DNA from: Vasconcelosia minhoensis LEGE 07310
Lineage (GTDB): Bacteria; Cyanobacteriota; Cyanobacteriia; Phormidesmidales; Phormidesmidaceae
Assembly: GCF_015207255.1 (NCBI RefSeq)
Contig: NZ_JADEXG010000018.1
Location: forward strand, 1-64,000
Length of the DNA: 64,000 nucleotides
Direction: 5' to 3'
Numbering within the stretch: the stretch's first letter is position 1; each line of letters begins with the position of its first letter. The notes below the pieces were generated by a model that had not been told where the DNA came from, searched no databases, and worked only from the letters and a program-made list of their open reading frames with translations. Positions 5,087-50,644 of the stretch are shown piece after piece. The translations under genes were made by a program, and so were the position numbers.

Positions 5087-6325
5087 ATGATTGCCCTATC
5101 CGATCGATCCCAACCCACCTCGCCGTTTGGCTTTGCGCCGATTCGACAGCAGTTTTTAGTCCCCTTTCGCTATGACGTGCACTTTACCGATGGTTTATTG
5201 CAGCCGGATAACCCGCTGCTAGCTCAGGTCGTGAGCGAGCAGCGCAGGCCCAGCCGAGTAATGGTGGTAGTTGACAGTGGGCTGCTCGCTCACAGCGAAC
5301 CGCTCGAACAGATCGGGAGCTATGCCCGGCGCTATGCCGCCCAGATGACGCTGGTTGCCCCGCCGCTGGTCGTCCCGGCTGGAGAAGCGGCCAAAAACGA
5401 TCCGACGCTGGTTGAACAGCTCTGCCAGGCGATAGATGCTGGCCGGTTGTGCCGTCATTCCTACGTGGTAGCTATCGGCGGCGGCGCCGTTTTGGACCTG
5501 GTGGGTTATGCTGCGGCAACGGCTCATCGCGGAATTCGGCTGATTCGGGTGCCGACGACGGTGCTGGCCCAAAACGACTCGGGCGTAGGCGTCAAAAATG
5601 GAATTAACGCCTTTGGTAAAAAGAACTTTCTAGGAACATTTGCGCCGCCGTTTGCCGTGCTCAATGACTTTTCATTTTTAACGACGCTGAGCGATCGCGA
5701 CTGGCGGGCAGGCATTGCCGAAGCGGTAAAGGTCGCGCTAATCAAGGATGCTGACTTTTTTAATCAGATTGAGCAATCGGCTACGGCACTCGCCAGCCGC
5801 AATGTGATCGCCATGCAGCGGCTGGTCTACAGCTGTGCCCAGCTCCACCTAGACCATATCGCCTACCACGGTGACCCGTTCGAGCTGGGATCATCTCGCC
5901 CACTTGACTTTGGCCATTGGGCCGCCCACCGGCTAGAGCATTTAACCCAGTATCGCCTGCGTCACGGTGAGGCGGTAGCGATTGGCATCGCCCTCGATAC
6001 GCTATATTCTCAGCTGATTGGGCGGTTATCCCGACAGGACTGTCAGCGGGTTTTGGCAACGTTACAAAAGCTCGGCTTTACTCTATTTGTGCCAGAACTG
6101 TCTCTCTATTTGGATCAGCCCGAGCATCCTCAGTCTCTGTTTAAAGGACTGCAAGAGTTTCAAGAGCATCTAGGAGGAGAGCTAACGATCATGCTACTAA
6201 CAGCCATTGGTCAGGGGGTGGAGGTTCACGAGGTTGACCTTGATTACTATCGAGCCGCGATCTCGCTGCTGACAGCTCCGTCTCAGTCCTCTGTTTCAGA
6301 CGGTCTGAGCGCGTATTCCCCATGA
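5087..6325 (+). CDS. eboD: EboD, 3-dehydroquinate-synthase-like sugar phosphate cyclase
   Basis: Belongs to the NAD-dependent sugar phosphate cyclases. The nucleotide-binding GGGAVLD lies near residue 130, followed by RVPTTVLAQNDSGVGVKNGIN and the metal-site regions EAVKVALIKD and FGHWAAHRLE. In ebo clusters this gene is annotated either as a dehydroquinate synthase or as an EboD-specific cyclase. The presence of the DAHP synthase in the same transcript makes a heptose-derived product plausible, but the actual substrate cannot be read from sequence. It overlaps eboE by 4 bases (ATGA). Confidence 0.9.
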   Translation: MIALSDRSQPTSPFGFAPIRQQFLVPFRYDVHFTDGLLQPDNPLLAQVVSEQRRPSRVMVVVDSGLLAHSEPLEQIGSYARRYAAQMTLVAPPLVVPAGEAAKNDPTLVEQLCQAIDAGRLCRHSYVVAIGGGAVLDLVGYAAATAHRGIRLIRVPTTVLAQNDSGVGVKNGINAFGKKNFLGTFAPPFAVLNDFSFLTTLSDRDWRAGIAEAVKVALIKDADFFNQIEQSATALASRNVIAMQRLVYSCAQLHLDHIAYHGDPFELGSSRPLDFGHWAAHRLEHLTQYRLRHGEAVAIGIALDTLYSQLIGRLSRQDCQRVLATLQKLGFTLFVPELSLYLDQPEHPQSLFKGLQEFQEHLGGELTIMLLTAIGQGVEVHEVDLDYYRAAISLLTAPSQSSVSDGLSAYSP

Positions 6326-45911: not shown

Positions 45912-46385
45912 ATGAGTATTGTAGCTAAGGTGATTGCTCAATCAGATCGCGCTGACCGATTTTTAAGTAGTGCTGAGCTGACTCAGCTCCAAGATTTTTT
46001 CAACGATAGCGGTGCGCGGATCAGCGCTGCCCAAAAATTAGCAGCCAACCAGCAGAAAATTGTTGAAGAAGGCAGCAAACGATTTTGGGAGCAGTGTCCC
46101 AATACCCCTAGCAACAGCGGTGACAAGCAAAAAACGGCCCTTTGTCAGCGAGATCAAGGATGGTATATCCGCCTGGTGAGCTATTGTTTGCTGGCTGGCA
46201 ATTCTAAGCCCTTAGAAGATATTGGTCTGGATGGAATGCGCGATATGTACGTCTCCCTAAACGTGCCTTTAGCAAATCTAAAACTGGCAATGCGCTGCTT
46301 AAAGCAAGTTGCTACAGGTCTCTTAAGCTCTGAAGAAGCTGCATTAGCTAGCCCCTACTTTGACCAGCTCATCCGAGCTTTTTAA
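45912..46385 (+). CDS. apcD4: ApcD-type allophycocyanin alpha subunit, ApcD4-like
   Basis: A 157-residue phycobiliprotein alpha subunit. Cys78 in TALCQRDQGWYIRLVSYCLLAG is the expected bilin attachment site, and EDIGLDGMRDMYVSLNVPL follows as in ApcD proteins. It differs from core ApcA in the loop before the chromophore, which is shorter and Asn/Ser-rich (CPNTPSNSGDKQK). That is a feature of divergent, red-shifted alpha subunits. It is followed by an ApcB gene and an IsiA-family gene, the order of the low-light cluster. A strong AGGAGGT site precedes the ATG. The number 4 is assigned from context and is not proven. Confidence 0.8.
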   Translation: MSIVAKVIAQSDRADRFLSSAELTQLQDFFNDSGARISAAQKLAANQQKIVEEGSKRFWEQCPNTPSNSGDKQKTALCQRDQGWYIRLVSYCLLAGNSKPLEDIGLDGMRDMYVSLNVPLANLKLAMRCLKQVATGLLSSEEAALASPYFDQLIRAF

Positions 46386-46483: not shown

Positions 46484-46969
46484 ATGCAAGACACAATCAC
46501 TTCGATCATTAACCCTGCTGATGAGAAAGGCCGCTATCTGGAGGGTAATGACCTTGACAAACTCAAGCAATATCTTCAATCAGGCGCCCTACGCGTTAAA
46601 GCGGCTAGTCAGATTGGTGGAAATGTTGACAGCATTATCAGCAAAACCGTTGAGAAAAGCCTGCTGTACGGAGATATTACGCTGCCGGGTGGCAATATGT
46701 ATCCTACTCGGCGTTATGCCGCCTGCCTGCGAGATTTAACCTATTTCCTGCGCTATGCCACCTATGCCATGTTGGCTGCTGACCCTTCCATTTTGGATGA
46801 GCGGGTTCTCAATGGCTTAAAAGAGACCTACTCGTCCTTGGGCGTCCCGATTGAGCCGACTATCCAAGCTATTCAGGCCATGAAGGAAGTTGTTACCCAA
46901 CGAGTAGGCGCTGAAGCCGGGCAAGAAATGGATGTTTATCTCGATCACATCATATCTGGTTTGAGCTAG
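46484..46969 (+). CDS. apcB3: Allophycocyanin beta subunit, ApcB3-like
   Basis: 161 residues with the full ApcB pattern: Cys81 in [23 protein letters not shown] binds the bilin, Asn71 (GGNMYP) corresponds to the methylated Asn of beta subunits, and [21 protein letters not shown] follows. Together with the preceding alpha subunit it would form an allophycocyanin protomer. The gap to the alpha gene is 98 bases, so co-transcription is likely. Assignment as ApcB3 rests on its place before an isiX-like gene. Confidence 0.83.
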
Positions 46970-47048: not shown

Positions 47049-48476
47049 ATGTACGCTTCTGACAAAACCCAAGAATATCCTTGGTGGGCAGGAAATGCCC
47101 GGTTTATCGATCTGTCTAATACGTTTATCGTTGCTCACGTCGCTCAGGCTGCCCTGATTATGCTGTGGGCTGGGTCATTTACCCTATTTGAGCTGGCCGT
47201 TTATTCTTCCGATGCGCCGCTTTACACCCAGGGCCTGATTCTGCTGCCCCATCTGGCCACTGAGGGCTGGGGTATTGGCTCAGGTGGCGCGATTGTTGAT
47301 ACCAGCGTCTGGTTCTCGATTGGGGCTATTCATATTGTCGCGGCTGCCGTGTTAGCGGGTGGAGCCTATTTTCACTACACTCGACTGCCTGCTAGCTTGG
47401 CGAACGCTCCAAACAATGCCGCTAAGTTTCATTTTGAGTGGCAAGATGCTAAAAAGCTGGGCTTTATTCTAGGGCATCACCTCATCTTTTTGGCCTTAGG
47501 AGCGCTGCTGCTCGTTGCTAAAGCGCAGTACTTTGGGGGGCTCTACGATGCCTATTCAGACTCGGTACGGGTAGTTGCCTCTCCGACGCTTAGCCCGGCT
47601 GCCATCTGGGACTATAGAACGCATCTGTTTGATGTTAGAAGCCTAGAAGACTTGGTGGGTGGACATATCTATGTCGCTGGTCTATTGATTGCAGGAGGCA
47701 TCTGGCACATTCTGGTTCCTCCCTTCCAATGGGTTAAGCGGTTTTTCTTCTTTTCGGGAGATGGCATTTTATCCTACTCGCTGTTTGGTATTGCCATAGC
47801 AGGCTTTGCGGCCTCTTACTACTGCGGCTTCGATTCACTGGCCTATCCTGAAAAGTTCTATGGCCCTACCTTGGAATTGAAATCGTCACTGCTGCCGCGC
47901 TATTACGAGGTTCAGCCAACCATGGCCGACGGCTATACTAGCCGGGTCTGGCTGGCAAATGCTCATTTCTATCTAGCCTTTTTCTTCTTGCAGGGCGGCC
48001 TATGGCATTTTCAACGGGCGGCAGGCTTCAATATCAGTAACCTGCTGGAAAACTGGCGGCGAAATCGGCTTGTGAGCAGTGAAAATCCCACGCTGGCTTA
48101 TCAGCACTCAGAACGGTTACAGCCCGGCTCCGCTGTGACTTTAGGATACGGTATGCCGGAAGCTGAGCCACAGCCCCAGCTGAAAATAAGACAATACGAC
48201 GAGGATTATATCTATCGGCCCATTAGAAGGATGTCTCAAACCGATCTGACTACCATTAATGGCGTCAAAAAGACGCTGTATCAGACGGCCTATCAGTCCC
48301 AGAAAGACAGGTTCTATCAATCTTCTAAGCAAGATAAATCTGAGGCTGAAACCTTGTTTGGATATGGTAAATCCTATTCGGATCGCCTGTATGAGAGACC
48401 TGAAAATTTGGCAACTAAGCCACCTGCATACTCTCGACCCATCGAAACCACAGTTTACGAACCTAGGCTTCAGTAA
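47049..48476 (+). CDS. isiX: IsiA/CP43-family chlorophyll-binding protein with C-terminal extension (IsiX-like)
   Basis: The first ~325 residues are a six-helix CP43-like antenna: WWAGNARFIDLSNTFIVAHVAQAA, LILLPHLATEGWGIGSGG, and the final helix NAHFYLAFFFLQGGLWHFQRAA with chlorophyll-ligand His residues. The large lumenal loop of true CP43 is absent, as in IsiA/Pcb. IsiA proteins end near residue 345; this one runs to 475 with a hydrophilic, Tyr- and Gln-rich tail. Being third after ApcD- and ApcB-type genes, it matches the isiX position in low-light-induced clusters. It would bind chlorophyll a in the thylakoid membrane, and the tail would face the cytoplasm, where allophycocyanin is. Confidence 0.85.
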   Translation: MYASDKTQEYPWWAGNARFIDLSNTFIVAHVAQAALIMLWAGSFTLFELAVYSSDAPLYTQGLILLPHLATEGWGIGSGGAIVDTSVWFSIGAIHIVAAAVLAGGAYFHYTRLPASLANAPNNAAKFHFEWQDAKKLGFILGHHLIFLALGALLLVAKAQYFGGLYDAYSDSVRVVASPTLSPAAIWDYRTHLFDVRSLEDLVGGHIYVAGLLIAGGIWHILVPPFQWVKRFFFFSGDGILSYSLFGIAIAGFAASYYCGFDSLAYPEKFYGPTLELKSSLLPRYYEVQPTMADGYTSRVWLANAHFYLAFFFLQGGLWHFQRAAGFNISNLLENWRRNRLVSSENPTLAYQHSERLQPGSAVTLGYGMPEAEPQPQLKIRQYDEDYIYRPIRRMSQTDLTTINGVKKTLYQTAYQSQKDRFYQSSKQDKSEAETLFGYGKSYSDRLYERPENLATKPPAYSRPIETTVYEPRLQ

Positions 48477-48806
48477 TCGCTTACTGAGAACCCTATTGAA
48501 TAGGCTATGAGCTCCCCTGGAAGCACGGATTTGGTGAGTAAAGCTAAGATCAAGTGCTACGGCGGCTAATCCTGGTTTTGCTCACCTATTCAAGTAGGCA
48601 TAGCTCTACTTGGACTTTTGAGTTCCAAACGGAGGAAAGCTGGAAATATTTCCGTGAAAGCTCCAAAACATTGCTATAACCTATGCTGCAACTACCACCC
48701 AAGCAATGAAGATACTGATTAATGACTGACTTATTCATAAGCTTCTCGCTCGGTTCGTGTTACTTCTCTTGCGCTGATTAAGCGAATTGAATTGCCTCTT
48801 TCTTTA
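48477..48806. other. Gap downstream of isiX
   Basis: About 330 bases without a gene. No strong T-tailed hairpin was found to end the antenna operon. It leads into a patch of gene fragments. Confidence 0.4.
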
Positions 48807-48894
48807 CCGTTTGTCCAACCTTAGCCAGCTCAGACGGCACGTAGGCTAGCGCAATCGGGTAGCCCAGCGTAGACGAGAGAGTGCCGCTGGTGAA
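48807..48894 (-). pseudogene. Duplicated fragment of the gcvT 3' region
   Basis: 84 of 88 bases equal 49629-49716 inside intact gcvT, in the same orientation. It encodes most of SGTLSSTLGYPIALAYVP and the following residues, then diverges. There is no start and no functional domain. Confidence 0.85.
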
Positions 48895-48916
48895 GATAAT
48901 GCAGCACTCACCCGCG

Positions 48917-49342
48917 TCAACCATTAGCAAATACTTGAGGGACAATATCAAAGGGTTGATTCCCTTTGAAACGGCAAATCTTAAAGTCCCGATCAAGCGT
49001 AAAAATTCGTTTTTGATTGAGAGCTTCAGCCGCAGCCACTAAGGAAGCATCTGCTAAATCCATTGGCAAATCTCGATACTGCTCCATTAATGCTTGCATC
49101 TTGGTTTGCTCATCTTCCTAGTTGAAGTGAAGTACAAGGATCTGATTAGTAACGTAACCCCATAATTCCTGCTGTGCCGACCAGCCGCCATATCGACCTA
49201 ACAAGTACATGGCTTCTGTGAAACATGACCATGTCGTAACCAAAGGTGCGGAAAGATCGGATAAAGCATTGACGCAACGAGTATGATTGATGTCACTCTG
49301 GTTAATCAAAGCAATCAAAGGAGACGCATCACAAAGAGTCAC
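48917..49342 (-). pseudogene. PIN domain toxin gene with an in-frame stop codon
   Basis: Read through, the frame gives a 141-codon PIN protein: LCDASPLIALINQSD holds the first Asp, and LADASLVAAAEALNQKRIFTLDRDF the last two acidic motifs. TAG at 49118-49120, after residue 74, stops translation between the two halves, which stay in the same frame. The GTG start overlaps the stop of a truncated antitoxin. The toxin is therefore probably dead. Confidence 0.8.
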
Positions 49343-49428
49343 TGCTCCAATCCTGGTAGCTTGTACTTCTCAACTAGCAGATCTGTGAATGCATCTTTGG
49401 GGAGATAGGTAGAAATTCGTCTGCCTAA
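49339..49428 (-). pseudogene. Antitoxin C-terminal remnant
   Basis: About 29 residues (ending FTDLLVEKYKLPGLEQ) precede the PIN frame with a 3-base overlap, as in toxin-antitoxin operons. An in-frame TGA sits directly upstream at 49429-49431 and no start is available, so the DNA-binding half has been lost. Confidence 0.55.
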
Positions 49429-49549
49429 TCACCCGAAGAAAATGGCAGGCAGGAACTTTCCGCCTAGCTACAGCTGATTATACACTGACAGCCCTAGGCA
49501 GTTTGCCGCGATCGCATCTTGCTGAGGCTTGACCCGTCCCAGATATGGG

Positions 49550-50644
49550 TTAGTTCTGAGTTTGGGCTCGATAGAACGGGCGCTTGACGACGGTTGCAGG
49601 GAAAAGGCGATCGCGAATCTCAACCTCCACCGTTTGCCCAACCTTAGCCAGCTCAGACGGCACGTAGGCCAGGGCAATCGGGTAGCCCAGCGTAGGCGAG
49701 AGAGTGCCGCTGGTGACAATTCCGACTGGTTTATCCTGCGCCATAATCGGGTAGTCATGCCGGGCGATATTGCGTCCCTCTAGCTGAAGTCCAACCAGGC
49801 GACGTGAAACGCCGGTTTTCCTTTGCTGCTGGAGGACGGGGCGACCGATAAAGTTTTGAGGCTTGTCCAAATGCACTAGCCAGCCCAACCCCGCCTCCAG
49901 AGGCGTCGTCGTATCGGCAATGTCCTGACCGTAAAGGGCCATCGCCGCCTCTAGCCGCAGTGTATCCCTTGCGCCTAAGCCGCAGGGCGTGACGCCCTGG
50001 TCTAACAGTGCCTGCCAGACTGCTGCGGCTTGGCTGGCTTCGACCATCAGCTCAAAGCCGTCTTCGCCGGTGTAGCCGGTGCGGGCGAAAAAGACGGGTG
50101 TGTCTAAAATCTGGCCGGTGTGATGGCCATAGCGGGGGATTTTCGTCAGATCGTCCGCCGTTAGGGCTTGCAGCTTGGCAGTTGATTCCGGTCCCTGTAC
50201 CGCAATCAGGGCCTGGTCGCGGGAACAGTCTTGCAGCTGTACCGTTTCGGCCAGGTTGCTGAGCAGCCAATCTTTATCCTTATTCGTGGTGGCGGCGTTG
50301 ACGATCAGGGTGACTCGTTCAGAACCGAGATCGCGCCCCTGGTCATAGACAATCAGGTCGTCAATAATGCCACCCTGGGGATTCAGCAGCACCGTATACT
50401 GGGCCTTTCCCGGCGATAGACGGCTCAGGTCGGTCGGCACCAGCTGCTGTAACACTTCAAGCACCGCCGTCCCCGTGAGCACAAATTTGCCCATGTGGGA
50501 AATGTCAAACATGCCCGCCGCCTGCCGGACGGCCTGATGCTCCTGCTTAATGCTGCTGAACTGCACCGGCATTTCCCAGCCGGAAAATTCCGTCAGGCGA
50601 GCGCCCTGATACAGCGCATGGAGCGGCGTTTGGTGCAGGGTCAT
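49550..50644 (-). CDS. gcvT: Aminomethyltransferase, glycine cleavage T protein
   Basis: Transfers the methylene group of glycine to tetrahydrofolate in the glycine cleavage system, used in photorespiration. TEFSGWEMPVQFSSI, AAGMFDISHMGKF (active-site Asp), QGPES and ARTGYTGEDGFE are present, and the C-terminal barrel is complete. Its length (364) is normal. The ATG overlaps the stop of the upstream hydrolase by 4 bases. Confidence 0.95.
   Translation of the reverse strand: MTLHQTPLHALYQGARLTEFSGWEMPVQFSSIKQEHQAVRQAAGMFDISHMGKFVLTGTAVLEVLQQLVPTDLSRLSPGKAQYTVLLNPQGGIIDDLIVYDQGRDLGSERVTLIVNAATTNKDKDWLLSNLAETVQLQDCSRDQALIAVQGPESTAKLQALTADDLTKIPRYGHHTGQILDTPVFFARTGYTGEDGFELMVEASQAAAVWQALLDQGVTPCGLGARDTLRLEAAMALYGQDIADTTTPLEAGLGWLVHLDKPQNFIGRPVLQQQRKTGVSRRLVGLQLEGRNIARHDYPIMAQDKPVGIVTSGTLSPTLGYPIALAYVPSELAKVGQTVEVEIRDRLFPATVVKRPFYRAQTQN

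Follow-up and report, generated by a model that had tools for sequence, protein, structure and literature searches.

Tyrosine motifs in the C-terminal tail of IsiX and the company of the tail with far-red allophycocyanin genes

How are nanotubes of far-red allophycocyanin (FRL-AP) attached to the photosynthetic membrane? The C-terminal tail of IsiX bears on this question, and one such tail is encoded in Vasconcelosia minhoensis LEGE 07310, within the window analysed here (the whole stretch of 64,000 nucleotides at the start of contig NZ_JADEXG010000018.1). An earlier note, made from the sequence without database searches, had described a hydrophilic tail of ~135 residues on an IsiX-like protein and had suggested that it could tether the chlorophyll antenna to the neighbouring allophycocyanin. 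Both are already published and are thus a rediscovery, not a discovery made here: IsiX was named in Olsen 2015, with an extension of nearly 100 residues and a suggested extra transmembrane helix (PMC4477158), a Gln- and Pro-rich extension of ~150 residues, its function called unknown, was described on Halomicronema IsiA2 in Chen 2019 (PMC6416890), and 127 extra residues were reported in Gisriel 2023, where the tail was proposed to thread the FRL-AP nanotube as a 'ruler' or to wrap around the nanotube (PMC10038336). Gisriel 2023, citing Soulier, also reports that FRL-AP co-purifies with IsiX (PMC10038336). In the literature searched, there was no mention of repeated motifs in the tail or of IsiX forms without the membrane domain.

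The isiX gene is the last of the apcD4-apcB3-isiX operon, with all three genes in one direction and apcD4 and apcB3 directly upstream of isiX (Table 1). Its product was assigned to the IsiA/CP43-type six-helix proteins from its matches to Pfam PSII (E=1.9e-52) and, above cut-off, to TIGR03041, from its hydrophobic helices and from its histidines (12 of the 14 compared columns kept). Identity was 60-81% to IsiX of relatives and, for residues 8-331, 59% to a paralogue of the IsiA type; the fold is that of IsiA/Pcb, but the His of the QGH motif present in those proteins is lacking (Gly317). ApcD4 was 75-93% identical to ApcD4 of other LoLiP operons, and the best PDB match of ApcB3 is the beta subunit of the FRL-AP nanotube. 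The IsiX locus (LoLiP) of A-type Thermostichus/Synechococcus strains (Olsen 2015, Soulier 2022, Gisriel 2023) and that of IsiA2 in Halomicronema hongdechloris share with this one the operon, the six-helix domain and the C-terminal extension. A gene for an LcyA-type photoreceptor was not detected in the window, in contrast to the LoLiP IsiX clusters that have one, which are only some of them; the H. hongdechloris cluster likewise has no neighbouring LcyA (PMC12279586). After isiX, ~1 kb without a clear gene (48477-49550) is followed by gcvT on the other strand, with no LcyA-type gene 3' of isiX, in contrast to L126 and L121-L123.

Table 1. Coordinates of the operon, of the parts of IsiX and of the mini-IsiX genes. 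Positions are those of the window unless a locus is named.
Feature	Position	Strand	Evidence or remark
apcD4, far-red allophycocyanin alpha subunit	45912..46385	+	Phycobilisome E=1.7e-51
apcB3, far-red allophycocyanin beta subunit	46484..46969	+	best PDB match 8ddy_B, E=1e-75
isiX, 475 aa	47049..48476	+	six-helix IsiA/CP43-type chlorophyll-binding domain and C-terminal tail
IsiX N-terminal segment, residues 1-28, MYASDKTQEYPWWAGNARFIDLSNTFIV	47049..47132	+	counterpart retained in mini-IsiX
Six-helix chlorophyll-binding domain, ~residues 29-324	47133..48020	+	helices; mini-IsiX deletion boundaries
C-terminal soluble tail, residues 325-475, ~150 aa	48021..48473	+	
Amphipathic stretch at the tail start, residues 329-345, holds invariant Trp336	48033..48083	+	low-confidence model helix; hydrophobic moment
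Tyr351 (LAYQ), anchor 1	48099..48101	+	100% of 44 tails
Tyr367 (GYGMP), anchor 2	48147..48149	+	100% of 44 tails
Tyr389 (IYRP), anchor 3	48213..48215	+	100% of 44 tails
Best conserved block, residues 399-423, DLTTINGVKKTLYQTAYQSQKDRFY	48243..48317	+	invariant Tyr411 and Tyr423
Distal motifs FGYG(439), LYERP(448), AYSRP(461), VYEP(470)	48363..48458	+	Tyr in 55-93% of tails
mini-IsiX	L121:4622-5143	+	
mini-IsiX	L122:5042-5563	-	
mini-IsiX	L123, about 5653-6186	-	

The sixth hydrophobic helix spans ~residues 298-324 and ends near residue 324 (codon ~48018); it is followed by the amphipathic stretch and then by ~130 polar residues. The soluble tail described in the earlier note was therefore confirmed as ~150 residues past helix 6; the previous figure of ~135 fits once the amphipathic stretch is left out, and the quoted peptide YQTAYQSQKDRFYQSSKQDK is present. 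The contrast drawn with IsiA/Pcb also holds, as those proteins end about 10-20 residues past helix 6 with no soluble extension, whereas the window protein has ~150 extra residues, a longer tail with more distal motifs than the 127 residues of Gisriel 2023. The 141 residues from position 335 include 13 Tyr, 12 Gln and 11 Pro. No hydrophobic 19-mer was found in the tail (maximum Kyte-Doolittle -0.19), and the extra transmembrane helix of Olsen 2015 was on that account rejected for the window IsiX. In CP43 and IsiA, six helices place both ends of the protein on the cytoplasmic side. With six membrane helices and this topology, the tail would lie on the cytoplasmic, allophycocyanin side of the membrane, so that a lumenal placement, one of the two refuters named in the earlier note, did not come true.

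Searches against Pfam, NCBIfam and PHROGs identified no domain in the window tail, with no Pfam match at E up to 10, including Pfam00427/Pfam01383, and 12 tails searched at E up to 1 gave no linker domain; weak Pfam matches in individual tails (E 0.0034 at best) were inconsistent and were dropped. When the tails were used for a profile search of the PDB, chance matches alone (E 0.28 or worse) and no linker domain came up. The earlier remark that no known linker domain could be recognised was correct at the level of sequence. The tail was not found in the plasmids, phages and viral contigs searched. An AlphaFold2 model of IsiX built from five sequences had a mean pLDDT of 32.5, and only the helix pattern was taken from it.

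A tail not conserved among IsiX homologues had been set beforehand as a refuter; in the tails of 44 distinct relatives, the tail was conserved. These tails form three divergent groups: that of the window, L017 and its kin (with small genomes, likely a thermophile group) and family f25. Profile comparison ties the window group to each of the other two (E 2e-14 and 7e-13), and tails of L017 and kin are homologous to the window tail over about 97 columns. All three groups use the motif hydrophobic-Tyr-[Gln/Glu], which occurs six times in the window tail (0.6 expected from shuffles, P about 2e-5) and 247 times over the 44 tails (about 25 in shuffled tails); the enrichment was also seen in single tails of separate lineages (P 2e-5 to 2e-4). 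Since the motif is enriched and a homologous tail was conserved in every intact IsiX found, the tail is not a chance sequence.

Five tyrosines (Tyr351, 367, 389, 411 and 423) were invariant in 44/44 tails, as was Trp336. Conservation of the distal motifs was less strict than that of these anchors. Tyr415 and Tyr470 were kept in 93% of tails. Tyr columns were far better conserved than the rest, with a mean majority frequency of 0.81 vs 0.50 in all columns. The spacing of the invariant tyrosines is 16, 22, 22, 12 and then variable, i.e. conserved but not strictly periodic. In L014 (1456-3096), a tandem duplication of 59 residues in the IsiX tail (51/59 identical), including the counterpart of block 399-423, adds four motifs; the tail of L015 is also longer. 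This ordered array of tyrosine motifs looks new.

The distribution of the tail was compared with that of ApcD4 (E 1e-52 or better) in 293 genomes of the order of G062. The tail was detected in 19 genomes and ApcD4 in 18, each of the 18 also having the tail. The sole genome with a tail but no ApcD4, G528, has a decayed LoLiP locus (L124:6175-6995), where isiX is broken, split and rearranged and a remnant of apcB3 is left, and no true apcD4 was found in that genome. Among 65 genomes of the window's own order, the tail and true ApcD4 (79-100% identity) were each present in 19 and together in 18, the two exceptions lying at contig ends. Ordinary IsiA and Pcb genes of these same genomes have no tail. 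The tail is thus in obligate company with apcD4, and this strict co-occurrence is an addition to published knowledge.

The tail also occurs apart from the chlorophyll domain. In three species of one genus (G122, G623 and G615), the operon reads apcD4-apcB3-mini-IsiX and is followed by a same-direction gene for a PAS-GAF histidine kinase in place of lcyA. Mini-IsiX has 173-177 residues: helices 1-6 have all been excised, and the complete tail follows in frame on the first ~28 residues of IsiX. The possibility that the ORFs of 178 aa are independent tail genes was rejected, as each is one ORF with the N-terminus of IsiX fused to the tail. Full-length IsiX was not found elsewhere in the three genomes, where the nearest matches were IsiA- and PsbC-like. 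Because the junction is common to the three species, mini-IsiX counts as one event. The tail is therefore separable from the chlorophyll domain, and IsiX relatives of this kind, with the tail but without the whole chlorophyll part, look like a new addition.

Whether mini-IsiX tells us much about function depends on its state. In the codon model, omega of its tail was 0.86 on the crown branches, no different from 1 (2dlnL 0.1) and above the background of 0.19 (2dlnL 11.5), and 0.59 with the stem included; selection on mini-IsiX, expected from dN/dS, was not seen. We read this as relaxed constraint on the tail of mini-IsiX, and possibly as decay; the tail may thus matter less after loss of the chlorophyll domain. 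It is a serious possibility, though short of an even chance, that a single ancestor lost the membrane part and that the tail is drifting, so that the gene tells little about function. Against this, the reading frame is open in all three species over 34-35 substitutions and three indels (3, 12 and 3 nt), all multiples of three; a frame free of stops would be expected with a probability of 0.15 after 30 random substitutions, and the open frame with in-frame indels speaks against a free pseudogene. None of the five invariant tyrosines has been lost, and ApcD4 and ApcB3 of the same species are under strong purifying selection (dN/dS 0.08-0.13). Decay of mini-IsiX would concern one line of evidence and not the linker explanation as a whole.

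Family f25 keeps the motif array of the tail despite the loss of four histidines retained by other IsiX and IsiA (H68R, H95L, H143N and H306Y), positions which are probably chlorophyll ligands. In f25, isiX is convergent to apcD4-apcB3 (L125:4124-6645), and the positions in the relatives L046, L076-L081 and L083 agree with this arrangement.

Taken together, we consider it fairly probable that the IsiX tail serves FRL-AP nanotubes as a multivalent, membrane-anchored linker that has no Pfam00427/Pfam01383 domain. Of the tether idea in the earlier note, the link between tail and FRL-AP is strongly supported by the co-occurrence and mini-IsiX, while physical tethering is what we infer. On the cytoplasmic face of the thylakoid, the tail would act as a disordered linker that docks, through its ordered array of hydrophobic-Tyr-[Gln/Glu] motifs, on repeated, near-equivalent sites of the helical ApcD4-ApcB3 nanotube. 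Docking would most simply occur in the nanotube lumen, beside the inner beta-phycocyanobilins, and a chain presenting one tyrosine to each successive nanotube site would fit. The docked tail would hold the nanotube to the membrane and probably set its position and length, whereas the six-helix part would anchor the tail and normally pass energy to a photosystem.

In toroidal allophycocyanin, the exposed space next to the beta-bilin is occupied by a linker (PMC11614940), and the phycobilisome cavity is lined by aromatic residues of linkers, predominantly Tyr and Phe, which are thought to aid energy transfer (PMC8448738, PMC11614940). The space beside the inner beta-bilins is empty in FRL-AP tubes solved without IsiX. 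FRL-AP also assembles into nanotubes in vitro when IsiX is absent (PMC10038336), which makes the tail dispensable for assembly.

The geometry of the nanotube is a constraint on the mechanism, not proof of it. Seven protomers measure 72.6 Å, and each of the two consecutive 22-residue spacings, fully extended (~3.3 Å per residue), equals this axial repeat, a match that is possibly a coincidence. A straight chain of 150 residues would be about 490 Å long vs about 104-135 Å for in vitro tubes of 10-13 protomers; a ruler would therefore need a chain spiralling from protomer to protomer. The number of motifs hardly tracks tail length (r = 0.20), so support for a ruler from this correlation is weak.

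That the tail wraps the nanotube on the outside, or cross-links neighbouring tubes and membranes, without threading the lumen, seems rather unlikely: outside wrapping was named as an alternative in Gisriel 2023, and the 22-residue spacings would, possibly by coincidence, fit the 72.6 Å repeat on the inner or the outer surface, but in known phycobiliprotein discs the linkers occupy the central cavity (PMC8448738, PMC10322944). We find it unlikely that the main role of the tail is to dock IsiX on photosystem I or a different membrane partner, with FRL-AP held otherwise and the operon co-inherited only because all its parts serve low-light acclimation: IsiA-type proteins do ring photosystem I (PMC10038336) and the co-occurrence with ApcD4 cannot tell which partner is bound, but IsiA and Pcb, its relatives, attach to photosystems although they have no comparable tail, and the IsiX tail moreover remains where the membrane domain that would sit on photosystem I is lost.

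A linker tail on IsiX would resemble CpcL and ApcE in principle, as a membrane-attached protein that enters a cylinder of phycobiliproteins and links it to a photosystem; those proteins use folded Pfam00427 domains, whereas the IsiX tail has none and looks disordered. EPYC1 and CsoS2 are multivalent scaffolds in which a disordered chain binds a repeated protein assembly through short motifs that recur along it. The analogy is without sequence relation, and IsiX differs in being membrane-anchored and in its target, a helical pigment tube. More specifically, and tentatively, the tail may represent a kind of linker distinct from Pfam00427/Pfam01383, a disordered array of Tyr motifs binding successive nanotube units, with mini-IsiX, an amphipathic anchor plus tail, alone tying FRL-AP to the membrane in those cyanobacteria that have given up the chlorophyll antenna; we would put this combined reading below an even chance.

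Two further gene groups were observed in the host genome. At G000:C150:17358-25595, CP43- and CP47-like genes lie close to genes for three alpha subunits of the ApcD type (46-50% to ApcD4); this is probably a FaRLiP (far-red photoacclimation) cluster, in which case the host may have both systems. At G000:C43:135367-140008, four IsiA/Pcb-like genes lie in a row on one strand.

The conserved tyrosines of the tail are precise targets for mutation. The duplicated tail segment of L014 is a natural and direct test case for the published ruler idea, and the mini-IsiX species amount to natural deletion strains in which the need for the chlorophyll domain in FRL-AP membrane binding and photosystem feeding can be addressed.
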